Assembly: GCA_902388495.1 (NCBI GenBank)
Contig: CABMPP010000001.1
Span: forward strand, 124,001-188,000
Direction: 5' to 3'
DNA: 64,000 bases
Source: an uncultured Bacteroides sp.
GTDB taxonomy: Bacteria; Bacteroidota; Bacteroidia; Bacteroidales; Bacteroidaceae
The notes under the pieces were generated by a model. It was not told the origin of the DNA, did not search any database, and saw nothing but the letters and a program-made list of their open reading frames with translations. Shown one piece after another: positions 41,637-63,183 of this stretch (positions are counted from its first letter, which is position 1; each line of letters begins with the position of its first letter). Position numbers and translations under genes: made by a program.

Positions 41637-41675
41637 AATAGAAGTCGTTCAAGCATATTTCCCGGATTGTATTCT

Positions 41676-42080: not shown

Positions 42081-42104
42081 AAAAGCTGATTTTAAGAAAC
42101 ACTG

Positions 42105-42112
42105 CAAATGTA
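42105..42112 (-). promoter_or_regulatory. -7 box of the small membrane protein gene
   Basis: The minus strand reads TACATTTG. The operator candidate begins only 10 bp upstream, over the expected -33 region. Confidence 0.55.
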
Positions 42113-42121
42113 ACGAATAAA

Positions 42122-42148
42122 ATTGAACCGACAGACAAACTTTTGAAC
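42122..42148 (+). promoter_or_regulatory. HTCS-type operator candidate before the alpha/beta hydrolase
   Basis: ATTGAAC (42122-42128), N6, ACAAA (42135-42139), N2, TTTGAAC (42142-42148). The same pattern precedes the two PUL operons at 48080 and 58109. Its first half starts 59 bp before the TAATATTGCA box. Confidence 0.65.
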
Positions 42149-42180
42149 AAATAGGAAATAATGTTTTAGGGGTAATTCGC

Positions 42181-42190
42181 TAATATTGCA
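42181..42190 (+). promoter_or_regulatory. -7-like box TAATATTGCA of the alpha/beta hydrolase gene
   Basis: TAATATTG differs from TAnnTTTG at one base and is followed by CA. The identical 10-mer lies before the carboxylesterase (58210) and a one-base variant before susC (48181). The ATG is 28 bp downstream. Confidence 0.55.
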
Positions 42191-42217
42191 GTCATAAAAC
42201 TAATTGTTAAGAATACT

Positions 42218-43909
42218 ATGAAACTAAAATTCGTCTTTTTACTCTTGTTGTCTGTATTTGCTTTGCAGATGAAGAGTGCTGATGGAACTCCTGACGGACT
42301 TCCTCCTTTTGTTCGTTTTCCCGGGTTAGAGCAGGAAACTTATATTACGCGCGATACGTGTAAGAATGTCCAGGGGCGTTTTCCCGGTTTCTCTCCTTTT
42401 TTTCTTGTTTATCCCGATAAGCCTTGCGATGCTGCCGGAGCTACGGCTTTGATCAATGAACTGGGCATTGCGGAGTATGCCCATAAGTATTCGGGAACGG
42501 TTTGTGTTATGAATCCGTTGGGAAAGGAGTATGATGCGATTAAAGACTTGGAGGGGTATAAAAACTTCCTGAACAAAATGCGGATTTTTACAAATCTGAA
42601 GATAATCGGTATCGGTGCAGGAGCAACATTCGTTAATAAGGCCATAGCCGGACACGCAGGTGCCGTGGCAGGTATTGTTTCCCTGAATGGGCGGCCGGCT
42701 AAGGTGGGTAAGGATGTCGCTTCTGTTCCTGCGTTTATTGGCGGAGTGCGCAGTCGGCAGGTAGCAGCTGCCTATATTGAGCAGAATCAGGCGGAACTGG
42801 TACGAAAGGCAGACGGTTTGGCTTATTATGCCAATCGACAAGAACCGTTGCAGCAGGTCGTGGTCAGTACAAACAAATATGTTTCGTTGAAAGAGGCGTT
42901 TGCCGAAGCTTGGGAGGTTCTACTTTGCAAGAACTATCGTTTCAATAATTATAAGCATACCTGGTATACGGGGGCGTTATCCGATCAATATGGTGCGTAT
43001 GAGTTGGAGCCTTATATAATGCCCGAAGACTGGGGAATCACGCGTCGGGTGATAGAAAAAGACCTGATAGGGACGGGAAATTTCTTGTGGTATGAGTTTC
43101 ATCCGGAAGCTACTTTAAAAGCGGAAAAAGGTACTGTGCCTTTGTTGCTTCTGCTGCATGGCAACAATAATGATCCTCGTACGCAGGCCGAGACGTCTGG
43201 TTTCATTGAACTTGCAGGCAAGGAGAACTTCATTGTTGCGGAGCTGGAGTGGCAAGGCAATGGTTATGCTGCTATGGGTTTGGATGGCATTGAGCAGGTG
43301 GTATATCATTTATTGAAGACGTATCCTCAGATAGATCCTTCTCGAGTATATGCTGAAGGCCTTTCAGCCGGGGCAGCTACGGCTACGGGACTTGGCATCC
43401 GCAAATCGCATGTGTTTGCCGCCGTGGGCGCTCAGTCGGCAGGTCTGACTCCCAATCGGTATATGTTCGGTTATAATGGTGAAGCACTGATGAATGAAGC
43501 CGTACAGAAACGGGGGAATGTGGAAACTGCGTATTTCTCGGTTACCGGTACGGATGATGAGGTGGTTCCTTTTGTAAACGAAAGCAACTGGCGTACCAAT
43601 GCCTTTTTCTGTGCGTGGACTGCCTATCAGACCATGAATGGCATGGAAGTGAGCAGTCGGCCGGATTTTTCGAAAGATGCAACTTTCGGTATCGAACTGA
43701 AAGATAGGAAAGTGCTTCATACAAACAAGCGCATCACAATGGAAGCAGGGGTACTTTACAAAGGCGATGTCCCTCTGATTAAAATGGTGGCTGTGAATGA
43801 CTACGGTCATTGGAACTTTAAGCCGGATGCGCAGTTAATGTGGGATTTCTTTAAGCATTTTTCGCGCGATCCGTTGACGAAAAAGTTGATTTATAGTAAG
43901 TGCCCCTAA
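42218..43909 (+). CDS. Secreted alpha/beta hydrolase with an inactive N-terminal twin
   Basis: The 563-residue exported protein (signal peptide LLLLSVFALQMKSA) seems to contain two alpha/beta-hydrolase halves. In the C-terminal half the nucleophile elbow is GLSAG (Ser383), the oxyanion region is LLLLLHGNNND, the Asp lies in GTDDEVVP and the His in NDYGHWNF, as in polyhydroxybutyrate-depolymerase or feruloyl-esterase relatives. In the N-terminal half the elbow position reads GIGAG (131-135) with Gly for Ser, so that half is probably structural or ligand-binding. A promoter like those of the two PULs suggests co-regulation with them. It converges on HTCS 2 with a 6-bp gap. The ester substrate is unknown. 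Confidence 0.85.
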   Translation: MKLKFVFLLLLSVFALQMKSADGTPDGLPPFVRFPGLEQETYITRDTCKNVQGRFPGFSPFFLVYPDKPCDAAGATALINELGIAEYAHKYSGTVCVMNPLGKEYDAIKDLEGYKNFLNKMRIFTNLKIIGIGAGATFVNKAIAGHAGAVAGIVSLNGRPAKVGKDVASVPAFIGGVRSRQVAAAYIEQNQAELVRKADGLAYYANRQEPLQQVVVSTNKYVSLKEAFAEAWEVLLCKNYRFNNYKHTWYTGALSDQYGAYELEPYIMPEDWGITRRVIEKDLIGTGNFLWYEFHPEATLKAEKGTVPLLLLLHGNNNDPRTQAETSGFIELAGKENFIVAELEWQGNGYAAMGLDGIEQVVYHLLKTYPQIDPSRVYAEGLSAGAATATGLGIRKSHVFAAVGAQSAGLTPNRYMFGYNGEALMNEAVQKRGNVETAYFSVTGTDDEVVPFVNESNWRTNAFFCAWTAYQTMNGMEVSSRPDFSKDATFGIELKDRKVLHTNKRITMEAGVLYKGDVPLIKMVAVNDYGHWNFKPDAQLMWDFFKHFSRDPLTKKLIYSKCP

Positions 43910-43915
43910 CGATAC

Positions 43916-46900
43916 TTATTGATATTCACTTGGGTTTACACCAAATTGCTTTTTGAAGCAGGTAGAGAAGTGGGAAAGGGTATTAAAACCAGTCATGTCT
44001 GCAATTTCAGAAATGGTATAGATTCCTTCTTTAATTAGTTCGGCTGCTCGGTTCAGTTTATAAGTTCTGAAGAAAACACTTGGGTTTTTACCGGTCAGCC
44101 CTTTCACTTTGTAGTAGAATTTGGTACGGGAGATTTTGAGTAATTCGGTCATTCGTGTGATGTCCAATTCGGGATTATCCAACTCATTTTCCATTAATTT
44201 ATATAGTTCTGCCATAAAAGCTTCATCTTTTGGGGTAAGGACAAATTCATTCGTTTGGCTTGTCCGGGTATTTTGTACTAAGAAATTACGCACTTTGTCA
44301 CGGTTTGTCAATAGTGATTCGATTAAAGCCAGTAAATAGGCCGGTTCGAAAGGTTTGGGTACGTATGCATCTGCTCCTGTGTGTAATCCTTCTATTTGGT
44401 TTTCCATGGTAGCTTTAGCTGTTACCAGAATAACCGGTATGTGGCAAAATTGTAGATTTGCTTTAATCTCCTTACAAAGCTGATATCCGTCCTTGTCCGG
44501 CATTAGTACATCGCTCAGTACTAAGTCCGGTGCTTCCTCGGCAATGGTCTGAAGGATATTATTGGAATTGAATCGGCTGATAATATGATAGTATGGGGTC
44601 AATAATATCTGTAAATAATGCATTATGGTTGGGTCATCATCTACTATTAATACCGTTTTCGGATTTATTTGATCTTTATGGCTGTCGTCCGGTTGTATCT
44701 CTGCAGGTTTTATGGGAATATTGTTTATGGGCGTTTTGGGGCCATAGCATCGCTCTTCTTTGGTGTATGAAAAGTCATCTGCGGGCAAGACCAGGGTGAA
44801 TACGGCACCTCCTCCTTCCTTTCGGTTTGCCGCTTCAAGGTACCCATGGTGTAGTTTGGCAAGGCTGCGGGCATAATAGAGCCCTATGCCTGTTCCCCAG
44901 TTGTAGGTACCTTTATTTTCTTTAATCTGATAGAATCGTTCAAATATCTTTTCCAGCTGATCTTCCGGGATATTTTCTCCGGTGTTGGCTATAGAAATCT
45001 GGACGTATCGGGTACTTTTGTCTTGTTCTGTCAATTTGAAGGACTGTTCGATTTCTTGGCGCATGACAGTGGCAAATGAAACCTCTATTTCACCTCCTGC
45101 GGGAGTGAACTTCATGGCATTGGAAAGCAGGTTGCTTAGTATTTTTTCAACTTTGTCTTCATCTGCCCAGCTGAGAATATCATTGTGTAAGCCTTGAGGG
45201 ATTATAGTTATGTTTTTACTTTGGGCGTTGATACTGAAAAAACTGATGATTTGTTTGATGGTAGAAGTGAGATTTGTCTGCTGCACTTCCAGTCCTAAAC
45301 TATTGTTGTCTATCTTATTGAAATCAAGTAGCTGGTTGACCAATCGGAGCATCCGTAAGATGCCATCTTGTAGAATATTTAAAAGTTCCTTGTTGGGTGC
45401 AGCATTGGCAGGAACGGCACACAATTGCCTGATAGATCCCAGCATCGTTGTCAGCGGTGTACGGAATTCATGCGATATGTTGGTAAAATAGCTCATGTGT
45501 ATTTTGTTCATCTTCTGCTCTTGTGCTTTCTCTTGTTCGGCACGATATGCGGTTTCTTTTTCAATTTTTATGCGCCGCCAACTGTGTATGAGTATGCCGG
45601 CTATTCCGATGATTGCCAGAGTATACAGGCATCTTGCCCACCAAGTATCCCAAGGAGCTGGTTTGATGATGATGCGTAATCGTTTTTCTTTTCCAATTAT
45701 ACTTTGGTCTTCATTGGTAATTTTTATTTTGAAGATGTAAGTTCCTGCAGGAAGGTTGGCATAATAAGCTTCCCGGTTAGTGTATGCGTGTATCCAGTAG
45801 CGGTCAATGCCCTCCAACTGGTAATGATAGTGTATTCGTTCGTATTCACTATAATCCAGTGCGGCAAATGATATGCTGAAACTGGTCTGGTCGTGTCTCA
45901 GATGTATGTCAGGTTGGCAGGAGAGGTCTTTTTCGATGATTGCATTTTCTCCGGGCTGTATAAGTTGATTGTGAATTTTCAGACTTTCGAATTTTAGGGG
46001 AATGTTGTATTTATAGAAAGCCTCCATAGGATTGAAGAATGTTATTCCGTGGGTTCCTCCGAATATCAAAGTACCGTCTGAAAGCCGACAAGATGCACGG
46101 TCATAGAATTGATTGCCCTCGATGCCGTCACTTGCATAATAATTGCTGACTTGGTTTGTCCGGCGTTCGTACTTGCTTAATCCGTATAATGTAGATATCC
46201 AGATATTTCCTTGTACATCTTCTTCGATACTGCAAACTTCTGTGCAGGCAATGCCGGGAATAGCTACTAACTTCTGATTTTGAGGGCTGTATCGTAAAAG
46301 ACCGTTATAGGAGGTACCAATCCAGATATCTCCCTGGCTGTCTTCGTACAATGTGGTAGGGATAAATTTGGAACGTCGTATGCAGGTAGCACTGTCGGCT
46401 CTCGAAATGTTTATCATTTGACTTTTCCACGTATCGGGGTTTACTAAACGAATCCTATTGGCAAAGGAGGCGATTAAAATTTCTCCATTGGAGAGAGGAC
46501 GTATGGCAGGAGTAAAGGTGAAATACGATTTGGGATAAAGGGATATGGGCGTGAAATCTTTTTCACCTTCTCTCAGAGCATATATTGTTTGGCTAAAACT
46601 GCCTACCCATATCGTTCCGTTACGGTCTTGTACTATGCATAGTGGATGAGGAATGGAGAAAGTTTTTGTTGCTGTTAGTTGATTGTTTTCAAAGGTACAT
46701 TTTATTATTTGATTAGTGTTGGTAGCCACCCAAATATGTTGATCTTTATCATGGTAGATGTGCTTGATGACTATATTCCCGGAATTTTCAGCAGGTATTA
46801 TTTTATTAATATCTACGGCTTTTATGTGTTGCGTATTTAAGTTGTAGATGTACATGCCGTCTTTTAGGGTTGATATATATAGATTATGTTGGTCGGCATC

Positions 46901-47962
46901 AATGGCAATAATGGATTTTTGACTGAAAAAGGAACGTAGATAATTGTTGCTGTTGAAGCGTTCCTTATAATGATACCGTACGGTATATCCTTGGTCTTGG
47001 GAACCTATCCATAGATTCTTGTGAGAATCGGTAAACATACAGTTAACTCCATATTGTGGAACTTCAAAAGGAAATTCTTTTTCTTTCTCATTTATGATAA
47101 TGTCTTTCTTTTCGTTGTAAAGGAACATATTGTTTTGCGTACAGATTAGCAGACTGTTTTTTTCGTATGGATGTATGTAGTTAATAGCGTTTTTTGATAA
47201 AATGGGATGTCTTTTTATAGCATCAGGGAGTGCTTTGAATCGTTTGTTCTCGGTGTCAAATATGAAAAGACGGTTATTGCTCACCAACCATAAAGATGTA
47301 CGATTATGCATGTAGGAATATGTAATCCTCTGATGCATTGGAATAGAGTCTCTCAATTTCATGTTCGAAGAATCATAACATCTTATGGAAGTAGGGTTGA
47401 CGGCCCATAGATGATTGTTCCTGTCAATGTAGCAAGTTTGCTTATAGGTGTTGTCCGGGTCGAAGTTAAAAAAAATAGGATTGAAACTTTCTGTTTCGGG
47501 ATTATATACGCACAGATGCACAATCATGTTTAAAAAGATTTTTCCATTTTTATTTTCTATCAGTTGATATCCATTTTTGTTGCTGTATGGTACGTTTATG
47601 GGAATCTGACGGAAGTTGTCTTGGTCGGTATATTGGCAGACACCGTTGGTAGTTGCTATCCATAAGCGTTTACGTGAGTCCATAAAGATGTCCTGAATTC
47701 TGTCCCCGGGCAGTTGAAGGGTATCGGAGGAACTATAATATTGCCGATACTCATGTGCATTGAATTTATTTAGTCCCCGGGCAGTACCTATCCAAATGTA
47801 ACCTTGTGCATCTTCTTGAAAAGCCGTAATGTTTTGATTGGAGATGGTTGCTGAAATTTTCGAAACATCCGGATTGTTCGTTTCCTCTTTCACAGTGATT
47901 GGCTTGCATGAGATTATAGTAATTGCAGATAAAACTATGATGAATATGATATGTGTTTTCAT
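43916..47962 (-). CDS. Hybrid two-component system regulator (HTCS 2), lipobox-bearing
   Basis: This 1348-residue sensor-regulator starts with a signal peptide ending IISC (Cys19), an apparent lipobox. A periplasmic beta-propeller with YIWIGTARGLNKFNAHEY-type strands, a Y_Y_Y domain, one membrane helix (about 775-793), a kinase with ISHEFRTP (His about 831), an ATPase domain, a receiver with LSDVLMP (Asp about 1151) and a C-terminal AraC-type HTH follow. It is divergent from the susC/susD/MBL operon, its probable target. It is closely similar to HTCS 3: long stretches such as FGGTHG, FFNP, ALDYSEY and EAYYANLP are shared. Lipidation plus a membrane helix would anchor the sensor domain at both ends. 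Confidence 0.95.
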   Translation of the reverse strand: MKTHIIFIIVLSAITIISCKPITVKEETNNPDVSKISATISNQNITAFQEDAQGYIWIGTARGLNKFNAHEYRQYYSSSDTLQLPGDRIQDIFMDSRKRLWIATTNGVCQYTDQDNFRQIPINVPYSNKNGYQLIENKNGKIFLNMIVHLCVYNPETESFNPIFFNFDPDNTYKQTCYIDRNNHLWAVNPTSIRCYDSSNMKLRDSIPMHQRITYSYMHNRTSLWLVSNNRLFIFDTENKRFKALPDAIKRHPILSKNAINYIHPYEKNSLLICTQNNMFLYNEKKDIIINEKEKEFPFEVPQYGVNCMFTDSHKNLWIGSQDQGYTVRYHYKERFNSNNYLRSFFSQKSIIAIDADQHNLYISTLKDGMYIYNLNTQHIKAVDINKIIPAENSGNIVIKHIYHDKDQHIWVATNTNQIIKCTFENNQLTATKTFSIPHPLCIVQDRNGTIWVGSFSQTIYALREGEKDFTPISLYPKSYFTFTPAIRPLSNGEILIASFANRIRLVNPDTWKSQMINISRADSATCIRRSKFIPTTLYEDSQGDIWIGTSYNGLLRYSPQNQKLVAIPGIACTEVCSIEEDVQGNIWISTLYGLSKYERRTNQVSNYYASDGIEGNQFYDRASCRLSDGTLIFGGTHGITFFNPMEAFYKYNIPLKFESLKIHNQLIQPGENAIIEKDLSCQPDIHLRHDQTSFSISFAALDYSEYERIHYHYQLEGIDRYWIHAYTNREAYYANLPAGTYIFKIKITNEDQSIIGKEKRLRIIIKPAPWDTWWARCLYTLAIIGIAGILIHSWRRIKIEKETAYRAEQEKAQEQKMNKIHMSYFTNISHEFRTPLTTMLGSIRQLCAVPANAAPNKELLNILQDGILRMLRLVNQLLDFNKIDNNSLGLEVQQTNLTSTIKQIISFFSINAQSKNITIIPQGLHNDILSWADEDKVEKILSNLLSNAMKFTPAGGEIEVSFATVMRQEIEQSFKLTEQDKSTRYVQISIANTGENIPEDQLEKIFERFYQIKENKGTYNWGTGIGLYYARSLAKLHHGYLEAANRKEGGGAVFTLVLPADDFSYTKEERCYGPKTPINNIPIKPAEIQPDDSHKDQINPKTVLIVDDDPTIMHYLQILLTPYYHIISRFNSNNILQTIAEEAPDLVLSDVLMPDKDGYQLCKEIKANLQFCHIPVILVTAKATMENQIEGLHTGADAYVPKPFEPAYLLALIESLLTNRDKVRNFLVQNTRTSQTNEFVLTPKDEAFMAELYKLMENELDNPELDITRMTELLKISRTKFYYKVKGLTGKNPSVFFRTYKLNRAAELIKEGIYTISEIADMTGFNTLSHFSTCFKKQFGVNPSEYQ

Positions 47963-48001
47963 GATAAAGATGCATTAAAGTAAATCTTACAATGGAACGG
48001 A

Positions 48002-48009
48002 CAAAAGTA
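48002..48009 (-). promoter_or_regulatory. -7 box of HTCS 2
   Basis: The minus strand reads TACTTTTG, a consensus match 40 bp before the HTCS 2 start. Confidence 0.55.
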
Positions 48010-48079
48010 GAAAGAAAATTGGTAGGTAACATTTGCCGATGAAGTGATTTTCTGGTCAGAATTATGTTGTAAGACATCT

Positions 48080-48106
48080 TTTGAACATATTGACAAATTT
48101 TTGAAC
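48080..48106 (+). promoter_or_regulatory. HTCS-type operator candidate upstream of the first susC
   Basis: TTTGAAC (48080-48086), N6, ACAAA (48093-48097), N2, TTTGAAC (48100-48106). Its first half starts 101 bp before the TAAAATTGCA box at 48181. A lone GTTGAAC at 48122-48128 marks a degenerate second site 42 bp downstream, exactly 59 bp from the box. Confidence 0.65.
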
Positions 48107-48180
48107 GTGCAAGAAACAAAGGTTGAACAAAGAGAAAATATTTATGTATTTCCCCAATACTATTTTAGAGGTTCTTTTGA

Positions 48181-48190
48181 TAAAATTGCA
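48181..48190 (+). promoter_or_regulatory. -7-like box TAAAATTGCA before the first susC
   Basis: This is a one-base variant of the TAATATTGCA box of the two co-regulated genes. The susC ATG is 65 bp downstream. Confidence 0.5.
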
Positions 48191-48254
48191 CCAAGAGTAC
48201 TACAATATAAATGAATGTAGTTTTTTTATTAACAAGTCTAATTATTTAAGTATT

Positions 48255-51200
48255 ATGGAAAACAATTTTAAGAGAAGGCTGACGGCATTTGGGTTATTCC
48301 TTTTAATAGGAATACCTTTTATGCTAGCGCAGAGTCCGGTGTTGATATCGGGACAGGTTGTAGATGATTTGGGGGAACCTATGATTGGTGTGAGTGTACT
48401 TGAGAAAGGTACTTCGAATGGAGTAATAACGAATATGGAAGGAACTTACTCGCTAAAGGTAAAACAAGGTGCCATAATTGTCTATTCATACATAGGATAT
48501 GTGACACAGGAGCGGAAAGCCGTATCAGAGAAAATGGATGTAATAATGAAAGAAGATACGCGGACACTGGATGAAGTAGTAGTGGTGGGCTATGGTGTGC
48601 AGAAGAAGAGTGATTTGACCGGTGCCATATCTTCAGTTAAGGCGGAGGATATCCAGAACCGATCCATTACTCGGGTGGAGGAAGCTTTGCAAGGTAAGAC
48701 TGCCGGTGTACAATTAATATCCACCACTTCACAACCGGGCGCTTCGCCTACTATCCGTGTCCGTGGTTTTTCCTCGAATGGGACTTCGGATCCCCTCTAT
48801 GTTGTAGATGGATTGATTGTCTCCGATTTGAGCTCAGTGGATCCTAATAATATAAAAAGTATGGAGGTCTTGAAAGATGCTGCTTCAGCTGCTATTTATG
48901 GTGCACAGGCAGGTAATGGAGTGGTTCTTATTACAACAAAAAGCGGAAGTAAAGGAACCAGCAGCATTTCTTATGATTTTCAATATTCTATCAGTAGTCT
49001 GGCTCGGCGGCCCAAACTGATTAATTCACAGGAAGCTTTGCTGCAAAAAAAGGAGCAGGACCCTACTTTTACAGATGATAATATTCAGGAACTCATTAGC
49101 AGCGGTACATGGGATGGAGTATCAACTACCGATTGGTATGATGTAGCTTTTAATGCTTCACCGTCTTCTCATCATACCGTCAACTTCCAAGGGGCAAATG
49201 ATAAGGGATCTTTTTTCTTGTCATTGAATAATCTTTATGATAATGGTATCCTTCGTGAAAATAAGGATACTTATAAGCGACTCTCGGTAATGTTGAATGC
49301 CGATTATGACATTAAGTCCTGGTTGAAGGTGGGGGTTACGGCCAATTATGCCAAATATACGCAGAAATCAATCAATGATGGAAGTGCAGGCAATTCATAT
49401 TCCAGTATGATTGCTACGGTGATGACTATGGCTCCTTATTATGCAGACACATATTCTGCCGATGCACTTCCCAAGCAGATGGAAGCATTGATTGCCAACG
49501 GTTTTACTTTGTTGCGTAATGATAAAGGCGACTATTATAGTTGTTTAGGTTCCATGGAACAGATACACCCTATGGTAGCTATTCGCATGAGTGATAAGAA
49601 AAATTTCGGTAATAGTCTGATGGGGACACTGTATGCTAATCTGACTCCATTCAAAGGACTTGTATTTACTACCCGTTTGGGATATAGAGAATTGAATGCA
49701 AACACTTATCAGTATAATAATTTATATTATGGTTCGGCATCAGCCAACAATAAAGACAAAAATGGAGCTACTCGTACCAATACTTCCACTACCTATTACC
49801 AGTGGGAGAACTTTGTCAACTATAGTACAGATTTGTGGGATAAGCATCATGTTTCTGCTATGCTGGGTATGTCTTATAGTGAGAACAACTTTACTTACGT
49901 GTCTGCCGGTGTGGACAAGACGGCCAAACATGACCCTTTGTATGCCGATGTCTCGTATCCTGCCGGAGATGCAGTGAAGAGTACTGCCGGTTATAATCTG
50001 ATTAATCGTAAATTGTCTTATTTTGGTCGTTTGGCTTATGATTATCAGAACCGTTATATGCTGCAGGTAGCTATGCGTGCCGATGCAGCCGATACTTCTG
50101 TGCTTCCGGGTAATAATCGCTGGGGATATTTCCCATCGGTATCTGCCGGTTGGGTTATTTCCAATGAAAGCTTTTTCACGGAGAGGAATAATACCCCTCT
50201 GACATTTTTGAAAGTACGTGCAAGTTGGGGACAAAATGGTAGTACGAGTAACTTGAGTGGTTATAAATATTCCAATTCTTTGGTTACTTCGGCTGCCGGA
50301 TACTCTTTTAGCAATACGGCAATGAAATACGTTACTTCTGCTAAGCCTTCCCAACTATATAATCCTGATTTGAAATGGGAAACTTCAGAACAACTGGATT
50401 TAGGTATAGATCTGCGCGCTTTCAATGATCGTTTCTCGTTTGGTATGGACTGGTATAAAAAGAAAACAAAAGATTTGATTGTTTCTGATATCGTTATTCC
50501 TTATGAGGCAGGAAACTCATCAGCTCCGATGAATGCCGGTAATGTTATGAATAAAGGATTTGAATTTGAAACCGGATGGAAGGATAAAATTGGAGATTTC
50601 AATTATTCTGTAACAGCTAATCTGGCAACTTTGAAAAATGAGGTTACTTATTTGGACCCGCATGTTAGCGGCGGACGTATAGAGGGTGCCACTACCATGG
50701 CTTCAAACGGTTCTTTCTCTGCATTTGAGGTAGGTTATCCGGTATGGTATTTCAGAGGCTACCAAGTCGATCACTTGGATGATGCCGGTAACCCTATATT
50801 CAAGGATAATACAGGTGACGGTACTATTGATGCAAGTGATAAAGCAATGATTGGTAAGCCGATGCCGGACTTTACGTATGGAATTACATTAACAGCCAAC
50901 TATAAGAATTTTGATTTTCTGATTTTCGGGAATGGTTCCGTAGGCAATGATGTATTCATGTCCTATAGTTATAACTCAATATCATATACTCTGAAAGAAA
51001 TGTATGATCAACGTTGGACGGCAGATGGAAACACGAGTCGTAAGTTTGCACGGCCGCAAAATACAAATGCAGATAAATATGGTTTGTCGGATGCCTATAT
51101 TTTTGATGGTTCTTATTTCCGTATCAAGCAGATACAGTTGGGATATACATTGCCTCAAACTGTTACAAAAAAGTTCTTGGTTGATAAATTGAGAGTTTAT

Positions 51201-51347
51201 GCTTCGCTGGATAATTTTTTCTTGTTTACGAAGTATCCGGGACTTGATCCGGAGGTTTCATCCACAACTACCAGTGGTATGGGTGTAGATTATGGAAATT
51301 ATCCTACAACGAAGAAAGTGGTATTCGGGTTATCAGTTACATTTTAA
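48255..51347 (+). CDS. SusC-like TonB-dependent transporter, first tandem PUL
   Basis: The 1030-residue outer-membrane importer pairs with the SusD protein encoded next. I start at ATG 48255 (MENNFKRRL), which gives a signal peptide ending FMLAQ; a TTG frame start at 48123 would place the promoter box inside the gene. Domains are a carboxypeptidase-regulatory-like region (GQVVDDLGEPMIGVSV), the TonB box TLDEVVVVGYGVQ, the plug (IRVRGFSS, YVVDGLIV) and a barrel ending KKVVFGLSVTF. susD follows after 17 bp. It is a clear paralog of the transporter at 60077-63160. The substrate is unknown. Confidence 0.95.
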   Translation: MENNFKRRLTAFGLFLLIGIPFMLAQSPVLISGQVVDDLGEPMIGVSVLEKGTSNGVITNMEGTYSLKVKQGAIIVYSYIGYVTQERKAVSEKMDVIMKEDTRTLDEVVVVGYGVQKKSDLTGAISSVKAEDIQNRSITRVEEALQGKTAGVQLISTTSQPGASPTIRVRGFSSNGTSDPLYVVDGLIVSDLSSVDPNNIKSMEVLKDAASAAIYGAQAGNGVVLITTKSGSKGTSSISYDFQYSISSLARRPKLINSQEALLQKKEQDPTFTDDNIQELISSGTWDGVSTTDWYDVAFNASPSSHHTVNFQGANDKGSFFLSLNNLYDNGILRENKDTYKRLSVMLNADYDIKSWLKVGVTANYAKYTQKSINDGSAGNSYSSMIATVMTMAPYYADTYSADALPKQMEALIANGFTLLRNDKGDYYSCLGSMEQIHPMVAIRMSDKKNFGNSLMGTLYANLTPFKGLVFTTRLGYRELNANTYQYNNLYYGSASANNKDKNGATRTNTSTTYYQWENFVNYSTDLWDKHHVSAMLGMSYSENNFTYVSAGVDKTAKHDPLYADVSYPAGDAVKSTAGYNLINRKLSYFGRLAYDYQNRYMLQVAMRADAADTSVLPGNNRWGYFPSVSAGWVISNESFFTERNNTPLTFLKVRASWGQNGSTSNLSGYKYSNSLVTSAAGYSFSNTAMKYVTSAKPSQLYNPDLKWETSEQLDLGIDLRAFNDRFSFGMDWYKKKTKDLIVSDIVIPYEAGNSSAPMNAGNVMNKGFEFETGWKDKIGDFNYSVTANLATLKNEVTYLDPHVSGGRIEGATTMASNGSFSAFEVGYPVWYFRGYQVDHLDDAGNPIFKDNTGDGTIDASDKAMIGKPMPDFTYGITLTANYKNFDFLIFGNGSVGNDVFMSYSYNSISYTLKEMYDQRWTADGNTSRKFARPQNTNADKYGLSDAYIFDGSYFRIKQIQLGYTLPQTVTKKFLVDKLRVYASLDNFFLFTKYPGLDPEVSSTTTSGMGVDYGNYPTTKKVVFGLSVTF

Positions 51348-51364
51348 ATAAAAAATAAAAAAGT

Positions 51365-53026
51365 ATGAAACTAAAATATATCTTATCCGGACTATTGGCG
51401 TGTGCATTTATATTTTCCGCATGTGATGTCGATTTGCTGGATATTCCCCAAAAGGGTGTAGAGAATGAAGAAAATTATTATAAAACAGATGAACAGTGCG
51501 AGTCTGCTATTGCTGCAGTTTATGCATCTTGGCGGAATGCCTATTCCGGACGTGGTGAGAAGGCCTCACAGTATGCAAACGGTTTCTTTTTGAAGAATTT
51601 TCTGGCAGATGATTTTAATTCGGGTGGAGCTCGCTCGGACCAGGTTTATGCGCAGGAAATATACGAGAGCGCAATAGTGGCTACTAACGGTTGGGTGGAA
51701 AACTACTACAAGAGATTGTATGCTACGATTTATTTGTGTAATCTGGTGATTGAACGTTTTGATGCCAGCGAAAGTGACGTGAAGGCAAGAAATATTGCTG
51801 AAGCCAAATTTTTCAGGGCTATTTGTTATTTTGAATTGAATACTTTGTGGGGAACACCTCCTTTGGTGGACCGGGTATTGAAAAATTCAGAAGAATATAA
51901 AGTTCCTAATTCTACTACGGAACAGTTGTGGAAATTCATTGAGGCAGACCTTTCGGAAGCCATTACTTCTGGAAAATTGACCTCCAAAGCCAATCTGGAA
52001 GATAGAGACGGGGGAACCCGTGCTACGTTAGAGGCTGCTCGAAGTTTATTGGGAAAGGCTTATTTGTATCAAGAGAAATATGGTGATGCTAAGAATGAAC
52101 TAGAACAAGTCATATCTTCCGGTAAATATGATTTAATAGGTGATATCAGTACATTCTATCATCCGGCTGCTGCCGGTTGTAAGGAGTATGTTTTGGAGTG
52201 TGTACGCCATTACGATCCTTCCAATATGTATGCCCAGGAGGGTTGGTTCGGTATTTTGGCTAATTGGGGATTTGGTTATGGCTTTATTGCCGGTCCGGAA
52301 GCAACAATGCACTATCAGTTCAATACAACCAGTGGCTATAGCTATTTTAATCCATCAAAGTCTTTGTATGATGCATTTGTGGCCGAAGAGGGCGTTGACG
52401 GATATCGTTTGAATACATGGATTAAAACTTGGGAACAAGTGATTGCCATGAATATTGCGGTGAATACAACGACCAATAAATATGCTTCTGAAGGTTATTT
52501 CCGCTTGAAATGGTTGGCAAGTACAGATGATGAATTTGTAGGATATTGGTGTGGAAATCAGAGCAATACTCCGGTTATAAGATATGCGGACGTGTTATTG
52601 ATGGCGGCTGAAGCATGTTTGCTTTCGGGTGACCAGGCCGGTGCTGACGAATATTTGGGGAGAGTACGTGAAAGGGCACATCTTTCCAGAAAAAGTAATG
52701 TGACACTTTCTGATATAAAATTAGAGCGTCGTTTGGAGCTTGCTATGGAAGGTACACGTTTCCAAGATTTGAAACGTTGGGGAGATGCCCCTACTGCATT
52801 AGCAGATAAAGGGAAGAAACTGCCGACCTTCCAGATTGTGCCTGATCCGGAAAATGATTTGACTACTGCAGAGGGTATTTACAATGCTCGTTATACGACA
52901 AAAATAACTTATATTGATAATGAAAAGACTTTGGCTGGCTGGACCCCCAATCGGGATGAATTCCTGCCATTTCCGGAGAGTGAACTGGAAGTGAATAGTA
53001 ATCTGAAACAGAATCCCGGATATTAA
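51365..53026 (+). CDS. SusD-like glycan-binding lipoprotein, first tandem PUL
   Basis: The 553-residue surface lipoprotein (IFSAC, Cys20) binds glycans and hands them to its SusC partner. It has the N-terminal helical repeat region with NYYKTDEQCESAIAAVYASWRNA, RAICYFELNTLWGTPPLVD, RATLEAARSLLGKAYLYQEKY and a C-terminal block with RYADVLLMAAEACL, ERRLELAMEGTRFQDLKRWG and a closing FLPFPESELEVNSNLKQNPGY, whose FPESE...NPGY end is diagnostic of RagB/SusD. The MBL-fold gene follows after 20 bp. Confidence 0.95.
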   Translation: MKLKYILSGLLACAFIFSACDVDLLDIPQKGVENEENYYKTDEQCESAIAAVYASWRNAYSGRGEKASQYANGFFLKNFLADDFNSGGARSDQVYAQEIYESAIVATNGWVENYYKRLYATIYLCNLVIERFDASESDVKARNIAEAKFFRAICYFELNTLWGTPPLVDRVLKNSEEYKVPNSTTEQLWKFIEADLSEAITSGKLTSKANLEDRDGGTRATLEAARSLLGKAYLYQEKYGDAKNELEQVISSGKYDLIGDISTFYHPAAAGCKEYVLECVRHYDPSNMYAQEGWFGILANWGFGYGFIAGPEATMHYQFNTTSGYSYFNPSKSLYDAFVAEEGVDGYRLNTWIKTWEQVIAMNIAVNTTTNKYASEGYFRLKWLASTDDEFVGYWCGNQSNTPVIRYADVLLMAAEACLLSGDQAGADEYLGRVRERAHLSRKSNVTLSDIKLERRLELAMEGTRFQDLKRWGDAPTALADKGKKLPTFQIVPDPENDLTTAEGIYNARYTTKITYIDNEKTLAGWTPNRDEFLPFPESELEVNSNLKQNPGY

Positions 53027-53046
53027 GTTGATAATAAAAAAGAAGT

Positions 53047-53865
53047 ATGAAAAGAAATTTAGTAATATTTGCGCTATTGTTTGTTTGTGTGGCCATAGGA
53101 GCGCAGACTGTATTCAAGAATGAAGAAGTAGAAGTTTCCTTATTAAAGGAAAAGACATGGGTATTTGAAACTTGGGACCATACTACTATGTATTTGATAG
53201 AAGGAGAAGAGAAGGCGGCGTTGATTGATACCGGTACGCGTTGTGAAGGCTTGGATAAGATCGTAAAACAGATATCACAGAAACCGCTGGAGGTGATTGT
53301 TACCCATATGCATCCTGACCATGCAGGTTGTATTAGATATTTTGACAAAGTATGGATGCATCGGGCCGACAGTGTATTGGTACCTCAGAATGCCGCAGAC
53401 TATAAAGGGGAATTGCTCTACATGGAAGAAGGACAAGTGTTTGATTTGGGAGGACGTAAATTAGAGGTTGTATGGATGCCCGGCCATACCCCAGGTTCAG
53501 TGGTTCTCCTGGACAAAATTAATGGAGACTGCTATTCCGGCGATGCGTTCGGTTCGGGTGAGGTATGGTTGCAATGTGTACCGATGTCACCCATTGCCAC
53601 CTTCCACCAATCATGTTGCCGCATGGAAAAGATAATGAAAGATGAGCATATTAAGGACATCTGGTGTGGACATTACCCTTATCTGAAATCATCTTTGCCG
53701 TTGTCGTATATTCAGACGATGATACGTATTTCCCGGAGATTGATGAATGGAGACCAGGAGGGATCGGTACCTTATTCCAATTATTTCATAAAGATGCCTC
53801 CCACTGCCCGGAAATTATCCGAAGGCCGTGCGATGATTGTCTATGATTCTACTAATATTCCTTAA
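53047..53865 (+). CDS. Exported MBL-fold metallo-hydrolase
   Basis: The 272-residue protein has a signal peptide ending IGAQ, so it should act in the periplasm or outside the cell. Zinc ligands are visible in VTHMHPDHAG (His87 first), MPGHTPGS, CYSGDAF and CGHYP, the standard metallo-beta-lactamase-fold order. The fold includes lactonases, esterases and phosphodiesterases, so the reaction cannot be named. Position as third gene of a susC-susD operon suggests it removes an ester or lactone group from the imported glycan. A bidirectional hairpin follows. Confidence 0.85.
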   Translation: MKRNLVIFALLFVCVAIGAQTVFKNEEVEVSLLKEKTWVFETWDHTTMYLIEGEEKAALIDTGTRCEGLDKIVKQISQKPLEVIVTHMHPDHAGCIRYFDKVWMHRADSVLVPQNAADYKGELLYMEEGQVFDLGGRKLEVVWMPGHTPGSVVLLDKINGDCYSGDAFGSGEVWLQCVPMSPIATFHQSCCRMEKIMKDEHIKDIWCGHYPYLKSSLPLSYIQTMIRISRRLMNGDQEGSVPYSNYFIKMPPTARKLSEGRAMIVYDSTNIP

Positions 53866-53902
53866 GTCCGCTGATACGTACTGTATGGATTGAAGATTGG
53901 AA

Positions 53903-53951
53903 AAGGAAGTTCAAAATAGATTTTGCTGTCATTTTGAACTTCCTTTCTTTT
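53903..53951. terminator. Bidirectional terminator between the MBL gene and HTCS 3
   Basis: A perfect 15-bp stem AAGGAAGTTCAAAAT (53903-53917) / ATTTTGAACTTCCTT (53931-53945) with a 13-nt loop is followed by TCTTTTT on the plus strand. It serves two convergent genes. Confidence 0.9.
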
Positions 53952-53958
53952 TCATGCC

Positions 53959-56900
53959 TTACTTGCGATACTCGCTCGGATTCACCCCAAACTGCTTTTT
54001 GAAGCTCTTAGAGAAGTGTGACAGTGTACTGAAACCCGTCATATCTGCTATTTCCGAAACAGTATATTTTTCTTCTGCTATCAGTTCGGCAGCACGGTTC
54101 AGCTTATAGGTCTTGAAGAATATGCTGGGGTTCTCGCCTGTCAGGCCTTTTACTTTATAGTAGAATTTAGTTCGTGAGATTCTCAGCAGCTCCGTCATTC
54201 GGGCGACGTCCAGTTCCGGGTTGGAAAGTTCGTTTTCCATCAGGTGATAGAGGTCGGTCATAAAGACATTATCCTGGGGGGAGAGAATGTTTTCTTCTAT
54301 ATTGTCCGTCTGCGTAGCCTTGCCGAGCATGCTGCGTGCTTTCTCACGGTTTTTGAGCTGCGACTTGATGAGCGCCAGCAGGTAAGTCGGGTCGAAAGGT
54401 TTGGTCACGTAGGCATCGGCTCCGGTATTCAGTCCTTCCACCTGGTTCTCAACAGTAGCTTTGGCAGTCACCAGAATCACTGGCAGGTGGCAAAGCTGCA
54501 AGTCTTCCTTTATTTCCCGGCAGAGCTGGTAACCGTCTTTCCCCGGCATCACCACATCACTCAGAATCAAATCGGGAGCTTCCTCACGCATCGCTTTCAA
54601 CGCATCATCGGCATTAAAACGGCATATCACCTTATAGTGTGCGGAGAGGAGTGTGCGCAGGTAGTGGGCTACTTCGGTATCGTCGTCCACGACCAGAATC
54701 TTGGGCTGCTCTTCGTCGGGTTTTACCGTTTTTTCGGCAGGGCAGGAGGGAGCAGTCAACGGGAAAGCCTCTGACTGGTTGCCCGGTTCGGCGGCACGTT
54801 CGTCTTCGGCATACGCGGCATCGCCCACGGGCAGGATGAAGGTGAATACGGCACCGTCTCCTTCATCGGGCTGGTGGGCTTTCAGCTGTCCGTGATGAAG
54901 CATGGCCAGGCTGCGGGCATAGTACAGTCCGATGCCGGTTCCCCAGTTGTAGGTACCTTCGGCCTGGTTCCCCAGCTGGTAATAGCGTTCGAATATTTTC
55001 TCTATCTTGTCTTCGGGGATGTTCTGCCCGGTGTTGGCCACGGATACTTTGATGTACTGCGTGGCGTGGTCATCCGGCTGCAGGCCGAAGAGCGGTGAAG
55101 CTTGCTCGCGGCTTATGACGTCGAAGCTGACACTGATTTTTCCTCCTTGCGGTGTAAATTTCAAGGCGTTGGACATCAGGTTGCCGAATATCTTCTCCAC
55201 TTTGTCCTCGTCCAGCCACATTAGGAAGGTGTCTTCCAGCCCGTAGGCGTTCAGTACAATGTGCTTGTCTTTGGCGTTCACCTGGAAGATGCTCACTTGG
55301 CGTTGCAGGCAGGCTATGATGTCGGAACGCTTCACTTGCAGGCGCAGGGTGTCGTTCTCCAGTTTGTTGAAGTCCATAAGTTGGTTGACGAGTTTCAGCA
55401 TGCGGTTTACACTACGTTGCACGATGCAGAGCAGGTTCTTTTCTTCGCCCTCTATCCGGGGATTGTTGCAGAGCTGCGTCACAGGGCCCGAAATCATAGT
55501 AAGCGGTGTACGGAACTCGTGCGAAATATTGGCGAAGAAACTCATGTTCATCCGGTTGAGCCTTTGTTCCTGTTCCTTTTCCAACCGCGCGTGCCGGGCA
55601 GCTTCCTTTTCAGTCCTGATGCGCAGGAGGGCACGCAGGAAGAGCAGTACGATGGCGGTTGCCAGTATGAAGTAGATGCTATATGCCCACCATGTACGCC
55701 AGGGGGCAGGATATACTATGATGCGGATGGAGTTTTCTGCTTCTATGATGCTCTTGTCGTTATTGGTAATCTTTACATGGAAGACGTACTCACCGGTGGG
55801 CAGGTTAGCGTAATAGGCCTCGTGGTTATTACGGGCATCTATCCAGTAATTGTCGAAGCCCTCCAGGTGATATTGATAGTGTACACGGTCATATTCGCTG
55901 TAGTCCAAGGCAGAGAAGGAGAGGCTGAAACTGTTCTCGTCATGCTCCAGATGTATGTCGGGAGAGTAGGACAGATGTTCGCTGATGGTTTGCCCGTTCT
56001 GCTGCGGCCGTATCAGCCGGTTGTGTATCTTCAAGTCGCTGAACAGTAGTGGGATGTTGCGCTTGATGGGCACGTCGATGGGATTGAAGAAGGTCAGTCC
56101 GTGCGTGCCGCCGAAGACCAGCGTTCCGTCGGGCAGCCGGCAGGAGGCGCGGTCGTAGAATTGGTTTCCGCCTATGCCGTCGGCTGCATAATAGTTGGTG
56201 AAGTGCTTTGTGGTCCGGTCATATTTGCTCAAGCCGTATTGTGTACTTATCCAGAGGTTGCCTTGCAAGTCTTCCTCGATACCGGATATGTCGAGGCAGG
56301 AGGTACCTGGTACGGGTATCATCCTGCCCGTGTCGGGGTAGTAACACATCAGGCCGTTGCTGACGGAACCTATCCAGATAGCTCCGTAGGTGTCTTTGTG
56401 CAGGGCCGTGGGGATAAATACGGAACGGCGGATGCAAGCTTTTTGGTCTTCTTCGGAGATATCCACCAAGCTTGTAGTCAAGTCTCCGATGTTGATTTTC
56501 TTTAGCGGCTGGTAAAATCCCGCCACCATCAGTTGGCTGTTGTCTATCATCGTTAAACCGGGGACGAAGGTGAAACCCTCGAAAAGCTCTACCTGCCTGA
56601 ACTCCTTTTCGCCCGGGCGAAGTGCATAGACGTTGACGGTGGCTGTTCCTATCCAGATGGTGCCGTCGGGTGACTGCATAATGGACATGGGCAGGAAAAT
56701 AGGGTATCGTTCTTCTATTTTCAGTTGTCCGTCGGGGGTATAGTGTCCTTTTAATATCTCGTTGTTGGTCGTGCTCATCCAAATGGCGTCGCTGTCGTCC
56801 ACCATCAATTGGTTCACGTAGATGTCTTTCTGTTTATCCTGCGCGAAGAACAGCTCCGGGTCGATGTGCTTTATTTCCCGGGTCTTCGTGTCGTATATGT

Positions 56901-58038
56901 ATATACCGTCCATGAGTGTGGATATCCATAATCTGTTGTCTCTTCCGGCACTGAGGGATATTACGGATTTCTTGTCTAACTCCGTGCGCAGATAATTGTC
57001 GTTGTTGAAGCGTTCCTTGTAGTTGTAGCGCACGGTGTAGCCCTGGTCTACGGAGCCGATCCACAGATTTTGCTGGGAGTCGGTAAACATTTTGCTGATT
57101 TTGAAGCGGGGCATTTCGAAGGGGAACCCGTTTTCGTCCTGACCAGTTACACTTTCGGTTGTCGGATTGTAATAGAACATGCCATGCTTGGCAGTGTTCA
57201 GCAACAGACCGTTGTTGCCGTATGGGTGTATGTAGTTGATGTCGGCGTTGCGGAGTACGGGGTGCCGGGCAATGGATGGAGGAAGTTGCTTGAAGGCCCG
57301 TGTCCGGGTATCGAAGATGGCAATGGTGTGGTTCCCGGTTATCCATAGGTCGTTGTTGTGTAAGTACGAGTTGTAGGGATATCCGCGGAGTGCGATAGAA
57401 TCTTTCCGTTGCAGGGTAGCGGGGTCGTAGCGATAAAGGGCGGCGGAGGTCGTCACCCACAAGTTGTTGCCGGCGTCGATGTGGCATTGTACGTAGAACG
57501 TATGGTTGGGATCTAAATCGGGTAGGACGCAGGTGATTCTCTCCGTTTCGGGGTTATAGGCATAAAGTTGTGATACGGTGTTCATGAAGATACGTCCTTT
57601 GCGGTCTTCGATGATTTGGTGTACGTTCTTGTTGTTGGCTTCGATGGGGATAAACTTGAAATTATCCTGATTGGTGTATCGGCATATTCCGTTCACAGTG
57701 GCAATCCAGAGCCGGTTCTTGGAGTCGCGCAGCAGGTGGGTGATTTGGTTGTCGGGCAGTCCCAGTGAGTCGTCGGTACAGAAGTACTGGTGGTATTCGT
57801 GCACGTTGTATTTGTTCAGTCCCCGGAATGTACCTATCCATATATGTCCTTGGGCATCTTCGGCAATGGCGGTGACTTTCTGGTTGGATAGGTCGTTGGC
57901 AATGACAGGACTTTCTATCTCGGAGTATCGGTTTTCGGAAACGGATTCTTTACCACCGCAGGCCAACAGGCAGATGGCGGATAGGATGACGGACAGCAAG
58001 CGGCACTGTGTACGGAGGTTAGATTTGAACAAGGTCAT
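53959..58038 (-). CDS. Hybrid two-component system regulator (HTCS 3), lipobox-bearing
   Basis: The 1359-residue paralog of HTCS 2 has the same domain order. I start at ATG 58038 (MTLFKSNLRTQC), which gives a lipobox LLAC (Cys27); longer frames lack a clear signal peptide. The periplasmic propeller (HIWIGTFRGLNKYNVHEY) and Y_Y_Y domain are followed by a membrane helix (about 782-803), His about 840 (ISHEFRTP), receiver Asp about 1161 (LSDVVMP) and an AraC-type HTH ending KQFGVNPSEYRK. It faces the carboxylesterase-susC-susD genes across a control region carrying two operator-like sites. Similarity to HTCS 2 over the whole length indicates duplication. Confidence 0.95.
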   Translation of the reverse strand: MTLFKSNLRTQCRLLSVILSAICLLACGGKESVSENRYSEIESPVIANDLSNQKVTAIAEDAQGHIWIGTFRGLNKYNVHEYHQYFCTDDSLGLPDNQITHLLRDSKNRLWIATVNGICRYTNQDNFKFIPIEANNKNVHQIIEDRKGRIFMNTVSQLYAYNPETERITCVLPDLDPNHTFYVQCHIDAGNNLWVTTSAALYRYDPATLQRKDSIALRGYPYNSYLHNNDLWITGNHTIAIFDTRTRAFKQLPPSIARHPVLRNADINYIHPYGNNGLLLNTAKHGMFYYNPTTESVTGQDENGFPFEMPRFKISKMFTDSQQNLWIGSVDQGYTVRYNYKERFNNDNYLRTELDKKSVISLSAGRDNRLWISTLMDGIYIYDTKTREIKHIDPELFFAQDKQKDIYVNQLMVDDSDAIWMSTTNNEILKGHYTPDGQLKIEERYPIFLPMSIMQSPDGTIWIGTATVNVYALRPGEKEFRQVELFEGFTFVPGLTMIDNSQLMVAGFYQPLKKINIGDLTTSLVDISEEDQKACIRRSVFIPTALHKDTYGAIWIGSVSNGLMCYYPDTGRMIPVPGTSCLDISGIEEDLQGNLWISTQYGLSKYDRTTKHFTNYYAADGIGGNQFYDRASCRLPDGTLVFGGTHGLTFFNPIDVPIKRNIPLLFSDLKIHNRLIRPQQNGQTISEHLSYSPDIHLEHDENSFSLSFSALDYSEYDRVHYQYHLEGFDNYWIDARNNHEAYYANLPTGEYVFHVKITNNDKSIIEAENSIRIIVYPAPWRTWWAYSIYFILATAIVLLFLRALLRIRTEKEAARHARLEKEQEQRLNRMNMSFFANISHEFRTPLTMISGPVTQLCNNPRIEGEEKNLLCIVQRSVNRMLKLVNQLMDFNKLENDTLRLQVKRSDIIACLQRQVSIFQVNAKDKHIVLNAYGLEDTFLMWLDEDKVEKIFGNLMSNALKFTPQGGKISVSFDVISREQASPLFGLQPDDHATQYIKVSVANTGQNIPEDKIEKIFERYYQLGNQAEGTYNWGTGIGLYYARSLAMLHHGQLKAHQPDEGDGAVFTFILPVGDAAYAEDERAAEPGNQSEAFPLTAPSCPAEKTVKPDEEQPKILVVDDDTEVAHYLRTLLSAHYKVICRFNADDALKAMREEAPDLILSDVVMPGKDGYQLCREIKEDLQLCHLPVILVTAKATVENQVEGLNTGADAYVTKPFDPTYLLALIKSQLKNREKARSMLGKATQTDNIEENILSPQDNVFMTDLYHLMENELSNPELDVARMTELLRISRTKFYYKVKGLTGENPSIFFKTYKLNRAAELIAEEKYTVSEIADMTGFSTLSHFSKSFKKQFGVNPSEYRK

Positions 58039-58062
58039 ATTGGAAATATTTTGAGTTGTTTG

Positions 58063-58070
58063 CGAAAATA
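58063..58070 (-). promoter_or_regulatory. -7-like box of HTCS 3
   Basis: The minus strand reads TATTTTCG, one base from TAnnTTTG, 25 bp before the chosen start. Confidence 0.4.
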
Positions 58071-58108
58071 CATATAAAAAGTTGAACATAACTTGCTTTA
58101 CGGCATGT

Positions 58109-58135
58109 TTTGAACAAAAGAACAAACATTTGAAC
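58109..58135 (+). promoter_or_regulatory. HTCS-type operator candidate, distal site, second tandem PUL
   Basis: TTTGAAC (58109-58115), N6, ACAAA (58122-58126), N2, TTTGAAC (58129-58135). Its first half starts 101 bp before the TAATATTGCA box, exactly as at the first susC. Confidence 0.65.
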
Positions 58136-58150
58136 ATACAGGCAAGCGCT

Positions 58151-58178
58151 TTTGACCCTTTGGACAAACCCTTTGTAC
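58151..58178 (+). promoter_or_regulatory. HTCS-type operator candidate, proximal site, second tandem PUL
   Basis: TTTGACC (58151-58157), N6, ACAAA (58164-58168), N3, TTTGTAC (58172-58178). It lies 42 bp after the distal site and 59 bp before the TAATATTGCA box, the same place as the single site of the alpha/beta hydrolase gene. Confidence 0.55.
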
Positions 58179-58209
58179 AAATCAACCAATCCCTTCGGCA
58201 GAATCGGCG

Positions 58210-58219
58210 TAATATTGCA
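58210..58219 (+). promoter_or_regulatory. -7-like box TAATATTGCA before the carboxylesterase
   Basis: This 10-mer is identical to the box before the alpha/beta hydrolase gene. The ATG follows 49 bp later. Confidence 0.55.
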
Positions 58220-63160: not shown

Positions 63161-63183
63161 TGAACCTTTAATTGATACGAACA

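Follow-up and report, generated by a model that had tools for sequence, protein, structure and literature searches.

Hybrid two-component systems (HTCSs) are a main way in which gut Bacteroides choose their food. The locus described here raises the question of which regulators read a repeat that stands before three transcription units, with two related HTCS genes lying between these units on the opposite strand. It is part of a 64,000-nt stretch from an uncultured Bacteroides sp. (NCBI GenBank assembly GCA_902388495.1, contig CABMPP010000001.1, forward-strand positions 124,001 to 188,000), hereafter the window; all window positions are counted from its first letter. An original prediction, made from the letters alone, had proposed that the two HTCSs (HTCS 2 and/or HTCS 3) bind the repeats and that a lone alpha/beta hydrolase gene is an extra member of their regulon. 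Our analysis indicates that the repeats are very probably operators of the HTCS 2/HTCS 3 pair, with a full form of four modules, and that both regulators would share the three promoters. The modules, their spacing, their register with the promoter, their conservation, their genome-wide specificity and their association with one class of DNA-binding domain can be read directly from the sequences.

Operator modules and promoter register

An exact pattern search found TTGAAC-N6-ACAAA-N2-TTTGAAC on the plus strand at 42123, 48081 and 58110. These are the three places given by the original prediction with an offset of +1, as its positions (42122, 48080 and 58109) mark the start of the TTTGAAC register (ATTGAAC at the first site). 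The three copies in the window compare with none in 100 dinucleotide shuffles and with an analytic expectation of 4e-6. The variant TTTGACC-N6-ACAAA-N3-TTTGTAC was present at 58151 as described, and TAAnATTGCA boxes stood at 42181, 48181 and 58210, with no other copy on either strand of the window; every such box in the 64 kb adjoins an operator. The number of boxes is weak by itself because 8 of 100 shuffles gave at least three (mean, 1.06), and it is their placement that counts. The distances claimed between half-site and box (59, 101, 101, and 59 bp, plus 59 bp from a degenerate GTTGAAC at 48122) were correct. All operator sites are intergenic, upstream of the hydrolase gene, the susC2 operon, and the carboxylesterase operon (Table 1). 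We also scored the window with a matrix built from 18 arrays of relatives (window rows excluded, two rows from the close relative L001 included; L labels denote loci and G labels genomes of relatives). Modules 1 and 2 at the three window sites scored 51.7, 36.2, and 34.3, whereas the next place in the window reached 4.3 and the best among 30 mononucleotide shuffles 5.4. When the three promoters were compared by eye, the sequence beyond the modules was unlike.

The two distances to the box differ by 42 bp, as had been predicted, but the accompanying idea of a single operator at two alternative positions gave way, on the information content of aligned arrays, to an array of four modules. The four modules were visible in 24 arrays (20 after removal of close copies), which had been picked by their match to modules 1 and 2 and a box at +101, leaving modules 3 and 4 as the unselected part. 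The module consensus TTTGAACAnAtaGRmAA is repeated in tandem at steps 0/20/42/63, that is, with spacings of 20, 22, and 21 bp, and the -7 box lies at +101 from the first module. The consensus of the array reads TTTGAACAaATaGACAAAcA, TTTGAACAtAnAGGAAAGC, TTTGAACAtanaGaaAAatc, and TTTGnAcAnatnAgAnA for modules 1 to 4, followed by 17 loosely conserved bases and then TAATATTGCA. The 42-bp shift arises because the hydrolase promoter has the proximal pair only (box at +59) and lacks the distal pair: its modules begin 59 and 39 bp before the promoter box, at the positions of modules 3 and 4 of the full array. The proximal pair stands alone at the hydrolase promoter in six genomes (window, L001, L002, L005, L003, and L008).

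Each module holds two conserved blocks, TTTGAAC and GRmAA, one helical turn apart. An AraC-type domain has two helix-turn-helix units, for which two blocks at this distance are expected. A single AraC-type DNA-binding domain would then cover one module, with its two units in successive major grooves, and given a module repeat of 20 to 22 bp, successive domains would line up along the same side of the helix. The complete operator would offer room for two dimers, and the hydrolase promoter would represent the minimal form. With its start 38 bp ahead of the -7 box, the last module covers the -33 region, from where an activator of the class II type could touch RNA polymerase. A comparable arrangement is the AraC class II operator araI1-I2, whose direct-repeat half-sites lie two turns apart with the proximal one over -35/-33; the present operators likewise have two-turn repeats near -33 and differ in their membrane-bound two-component regulator and sigma-ABfr-type promoter.

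Bacteroides promoter elements have been described as TAnnTTTG at -7 and TTTG at -33 (PMC7366714; this and the other papers are cited from excerpts of their text). The window boxes TAATATTG and TAAAATTG deviate from TAnnTTTG at one fixed position. Relatives without TAAnATTG carry the canonical TACTTTTG at a similar distance (+102 in L088 and L091, +99 in L097, +100 in L103, and +101 in L102), which supports reading the box as a -7 element. No TTTG consensus was seen near -33 in 20 arrays, where the second half of module 4 occupies that place; the absence of a conserved TTTG is as expected for activator-dependent promoters. The array ends about 17 to 21 bp before the -7 box and leaves the box uncovered.

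Conservation in relatives and link to one class of DNA-binding domain

A scan with SusD2 yielded nine relative loci. Orthologous operators precede the same genes in L001, L002 (Bacteroides muris), L005 (two of three), and the Parabacteroides loci L003 and L008. Conservation at orthologous genes, by which the original prediction could have been overturned, therefore extends to Bacteroides and Parabacteroides, register included. HTCS operators have been predicted in Bacteroides thetaiotaomicron by their conservation before orthologous genes of polysaccharide utilization loci (PULs) in several genomes (Ravcheev et al. 2013, PMC3878776), and the same pattern was found here. The third operator of L003 precedes a PF00756 esterase gene and a GH3 gene. 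L004 had no match within three mismatches and carries degenerate sites upstream of its two HTCSs (L081 and L082).

By hand tally, 32 of 40 sites with at most three mismatches have a TAAnATTG-like box (at most one mismatch) at +58/59 or +101/102; the sites were scored in two batches, with 30 of 34 and 2 of 6 in register. A half-site pair with an exact TAAnATTG at 58 to 59 or 100 to 102 bp was present in 20 of 48 HTCS upstream regions and in none of 100 shuffle rounds. When TAnnTTTG and distances of 58 to 60 or 99 to 102 bp were allowed, 28 of the 48 regions fitted, and the 20 that did not include those of all four outgroup HTCSs (34 to 36% identity). On rereading, L061 showed modules at 0/20/42 and TAGCATTG at +101 (hand count; excluded from the fits).

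The motif is not scattered at random, since genome searches of relatives placed the matches mainly in this locus. When as many as two mismatches were allowed, the pattern occurred three times in the B. muris genome (4.4 Mb searched; SusD 91% identical) and three times in the Bacteroides sp. of L001 (2.2 Mb searched), every time in the locus. Counts elsewhere were two for L005, zero for L004, three for G003, two for G006, and one for G007, and the reversed-pattern control gave zero in all seven genomes. One of the three matches in Parabacteroides G003 lies on another contig, before another esterase gene.

We then compared the motif with the regulators in a blind search of 149 genomes of the genus, which returned 45 matches in 33 genomes (reversed pattern, 12 matches). 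The domain class was defined as at least 68% identity to the HTCS 3 DNA-binding domain, with up to 31 candidates scored per genome, and was found in 30 of the 149 genomes (68 to 93% identity; next group at most 59%). The pattern was present in 19 of the 30 genomes having the class versus 14 of the 119 lacking it (P = 2.7e-8 by Fisher's test on a hand-tallied table). The 30 genomes hold 31 matches versus 2.4 expected from the control, and by hand tally, 26 of the 31 lie within about 21 kb of an HTCS of this class. The motif follows the class of HTCS DNA-binding domain, which is indirect evidence for binding by the cognate HTCS.

Two regulators and the alternatives

HTCS 2 and HTCS 3 each combine a periplasmic Reg_prop/Y_Y_Y sensor, HisKA and HATPase_c, REC, and an AraC-type HTH_18 domain in one chain. 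They are 52% identical over the whole protein, with 49.5% in the sensor, 53% in the kinase, 67% in REC, 80% in the DNA-binding domain, and 84% in its HTH_18 part. A shared operator predicts just this, two sensors coupled to almost the same DNA-binding specificity. Two related HTCSs, one locus, and one motif at three promoters also resemble the joint regulons described in PMC3878776, where the related pairs BT4111/BT4124 and BT4178/BT4182 each have one motif and one distant operon or gene. A tree placed HTCS 2 and HTCS 3 in separate clades and gave no date for their split (quick method, long branches flagged). HTCS 2 keeps the CHIP loop of the receiver domain, and HTCS 3 (53959-58038) has CHLP. 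Most HTCSs have an S/CHIP loop, which is linked to phosphorylation-controlled DNA binding (PMC11253607), so the control of DNA binding in HTCS 3 may differ. In the HTCSs of that study, as here, REC is joined to an AraC/HTH_18 domain that has two recognition helices; the excerpts describe no operator anatomy. A crude 7-mer scan of two stretches at HTCS 1 of the window (4382-8449) revealed no comparable array.

From these patterns we infer that HTCS 2 and HTCS 3 bind and share the sites, that they activate transcription, and that the substrate carries ester groups. Most likely, HTCS dimers would occupy the proximal pair with two DNA-binding domains, contact RNA polymerase from -33, and activate transcription. 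The second, upstream pair may strengthen activation at both SusCD promoters. Both HTCSs would be able to use all three promoters, and with diverged sensors and a near-identical DNA-binding domain, two signals would meet on one regulon for import and hydrolysis.

It is unlikely that only one HTCS uses the sites, namely HTCS 3, which is nearest the best operator, with HTCS 2 drifted or nonfunctional and the shared sites inherited from a single-HTCS ancestor. This would fit the Parabacteroides loci L003 and L008, which run the same operators with one HTCS of the HTCS 2/3 family, and the longer stem of the HTCS 2 clade in the quick tree (0.67 versus 0.19 for the HTCS 3 clade). However, the part of HTCS 2 best conserved relative to HTCS 3 is its DNA-binding domain (84% in HTH_18), the sensor having diverged more, and the operator adjoining HTCS 2 is kept in register in L001 and L002.

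We consider it improbable that the sites serve repression, with the HTCS blocking the promoter until its ligand binds, as proposed for another esterase PUL (PMC7815789). A protein bound at module 4, which overlaps the -33 region, could block RNA polymerase, and the loop tied to phosphorylation-controlled DNA binding (PMC11253607) is replaced in HTCS 3. The end of the arrays before the -7 box and the lack of a conserved TTTG at -33 speak against repression, and DNA binding by HTCS fragments is repressed without phosphorylation (PMC11253607).

Slightly less probable still is binding by another protein, either a stand-alone AraC or a different HTCS, in which case the association with the HTCSs would reflect a shared neighborhood. 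Although G029, G047, and others carry the motif without a close HTCS, its presence follows the domain class over the 149 genomes. It also adjoins the HTCS before differing first genes (carboxylesterase or susC), and upstream of the four outgroup HTCSs the best match has at least five mismatches. Chance or a dispersed repeat element was ruled out by the zero count in shuffles, the confinement of the three B. muris matches to the locus, and the unlike flanks.

Several observations weigh against reading the repeats as operators of the HTCS 2/HTCS 3 pair. Module 4 of the susC2 operator (48143) is barely recognizable in the window. A box in register is missing at eight of the 40 sites: L009 (+99), L062 (+81), L073 (+63), L067, L074, L079, and two in L076, which precede susC-like and carboxylesterase-like genes. 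The box is at +83 in L096 and at +85 in L084, and orthologous sites are not independent of one another. The domain class occurs without a match at up to two mismatches in 11 of its 30 genomes; in 9 of these 11, a degenerate site (three to four mismatches, without an estimate of its chance rate) lies upstream of the HTCS. Conversely, 14 of the 119 genomes without the class have a match, which is about the control rate. The sites in G029 and G047, which stand before esterase/GH3 genes, nevertheless look functional, and G052 carries the same site as G047. The alternative HTCS expected there, with a near-identical DNA-binding domain (at least 68%), was not found among the up to 31 candidates per genome in G029, G047, G052, and G078. 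Matches in L110, L111, L113, and L115 had no gene attributable to the regulon.

As separate observations, the operator-like pairs before esterase/GH3 genes in G029 and G047 are at L073:9806 (plus strand) and L078:9744 (minus strand). The HTCS 3 ortholog of L067 (G149:C97:45415-49482) is interrupted by an in-frame TAG, and its promoter is among those without a box in register. An in-frame TAG was also seen in the L080 esterase gene that follows a site at 9887 (minus strand). These codons may reflect decay, sequencing error, or something else.

Register at other HTCS promoters, regulon members, and neighboring genes

To see how far the register extends, we used 143 Y_Y_Y matches in five genomes and took 10 kb around 74 of them from four genomes, setting aside 4 of the HTCS 2/3 family. 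Self-repetition was mapped, without a motif, upstream of each candidate -7 box that precedes a gene. Among 95 deduplicated boxes near unrelated HTCSs, no other of the 3,894 correlated cells was as strong as that of lag 21 with the first copy 57 to 59 bp before the box (6.6 standard deviations [SD]; 6.38 of 17 matches versus a map mean of 4.80 and 5.01 in 138 control boxes). The strongest cell anywhere in the control map reached 3.3 SD; the control boxes came from 20 arbitrary stretches of two of the same genomes, PULs not excluded. A best-of-range test was weaker (P = 0.016 by the Mann-Whitney test; at least 11 matches in 13 of 95 versus 2 of 138 boxes). The position of the proximal pair looks general for HTCS promoters, for which we regard the evidence as moderate. 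The position of the distal pair does not look general: an equally general distal pair was ruled out, as position 101 with lag 20 gave 4.59 versus 4.85 in the control. For the subset of 28 boxes that lie divergently to an HTCS, the cell at 103 with lag 21 reached 3.1 SD. We regard as evenly balanced the wider proposal that Bacteroides HTCS promoters share a 21-bp-lag repeat about 58 bp before the -7 box, irrespective of half-site sequence, which here would be doubled to four modules, with two sensors sharing the arrays after a gene duplication and two ligands acting on one promoter set. By eye and unscored, the outgroup HTCSs L106, L107, and L108 appear to have arrays with other half-sites and a box at about +100; TnGGAnnnTGaTTAcAg occurs four times in L107.

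Direct-repeat HTCS operators and joint regulons of paralogs have already been predicted (PMC3878776). The motif in that work is a direct repeat whose sites are on average 21 bp apart; it is conserved before PUL operons, and its monomers lie two turns apart on one face of the DNA. The repeats at about 21 bp, their conservation at PULs, and the joint regulon of paralogs are alike here, and the array spacing agrees with two sites about 21 bp apart. In contrast, the excerpts of PMC3878776 give two sites per operator (a third or fourth being possible), whereas we found four modules, a reduced version of two modules, and a register locked to the -7 box. The regulon also differs from those of PMC3878776: it holds SusCD and hydrolases of the esterase type, and the window genes that were scanned include no glycoside hydrolase. 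Our literature search, which covered open-access papers without supplements, found one comparative prediction of HTCS operators and none on their position relative to the promoter. Within that literature, the doubled, register-locked array, this regulon, and the moderate evidence for a general proximal register were not seen before. The array provides a concrete rule (module spacing and distance to -7) by which HTCS targets, unlinked genes among them, could be predicted purely from sequence, and its register offers a model of how a fused regulator meets RNA polymerase.

Through this locus, an unstudied hydrolase is connected with a regulon of esterase and SusCD genes. The lone hydrolase was right to be named an extra regulon member: its gene stands alone with its own operator in the window and five relatives, and it belongs to the regulon because its ortholog lies inside the susCD operon of L004 (64% identity, between SusD and the metallo-hydrolase) or is fused to the metallo-hydrolase. 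In the latter case, the ortholog and the metallo-beta-lactamase-fold hydrolase form one open reading frame of 818 amino acids (aa) (L070:11437-13893 and L072:11822-14278). This in-frame fusion is a natural link between both proteins. Among 393 genomes of the order, 3 had a homolog of the hydrolase at an E value of 1e-60 or better. A PF00756 esterase of about 290 aa, Pfam-tested for the L077 copy, is found near the SusCD operon in L077, L063, and L071, and in Parabacteroides G003 (L080) a PF00756-type esterase on another contig has an in-register array. Near the operon in some genomes and apart in G003, this esterase shows the same pattern as the hydrolase.

Table 1. Genes, operators, and promoter boxes of the locus
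Feature	Position	Strand	Remarks
Hydrolase operator, two modules	42122..42158	+	Modules at 42122 (ATTGAACCGACAGACAA) and 42142 (TTTGAACAAATAGGAAA)
TAATATTGCA, presumed sigma-ABfr -7 box of hydrolase gene	42181..42190	+	
Alpha/beta hydrolase, 563 aa	42218..43909	+	Signal-peptide-like start; weakly PHB-esterase/S9-like; GLSAG at residue 381
HTCS 2	43916..47962	-	Reg_prop, Y_Y_Y, HisKA, HATPase, REC, AraC-type HTH_18
susC2 operon operator	48080..48163	+	Modules at 48080, 48100, and 48122; fourth at 48143
TAAAATTGCA, presumed -7 box of susC2 operon	48181..48190	+	+101 from first module
susC2, SusC-like TonB-dependent transporter	48255..51347	+	ATG position hand-counted
susD2, SusD-like lipoprotein	51365..53026	+	
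Metallo-beta-lactamase-fold hydrolase	53047..53865	+	Third gene of SusC/SusD operon
HTCS 3, paralog of HTCS 2	53959..58038	-	Start taken as ATG at 58038
Carboxylesterase/susC3/susD3 operator, four modules	58109..58192	+	Modules at 58109, 58129, 58151, and 58172
TAATATTGCA, presumed -7 box of carboxylesterase operon	58210..58219	+	+101 from first, +38 from last module
Type-B carboxylesterase (COesterase)	58268..59926	+	GQSGG at residue 234
susC3, SusC-like transporter	60077..63160	+	ATG position hand-counted
susD3, SusD-like protein	63172..64000	+	Runs past window end

The SusCD pairs are accompanied by esterase and metallo-beta-lactamase-fold hydrolases, in a window that stops inside susD3; in the relative locus L077, a GH3 gene follows susD. 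The esterase-enriched PUL of Bacteroides intestinalis (PMC7815789) similarly has an HTCS, SusCD, several esterases, and GH3, comparable to the PF00756 esterases and GH3 of the relatives here. It differs in its three GH43 enzymes, and the paper never mentions "carboxylesterase"; no GH43 was found among the Pfam-scanned genes (14 in the window and 10 in relatives), and we do not claim that the PULs are identical.

Upstream of the hydrolase operator (40932-42107) lie a gene for a YgjP-like metallopeptidase and a small gene of 131 to 143 aa, whose window copy has no Pfam match. The two genes recur near HTCS/esterase cassettes in L072, L073, L077, and L078. This neighborhood, with its differing cargo, is possibly a recurrent point of insertion or exchange.

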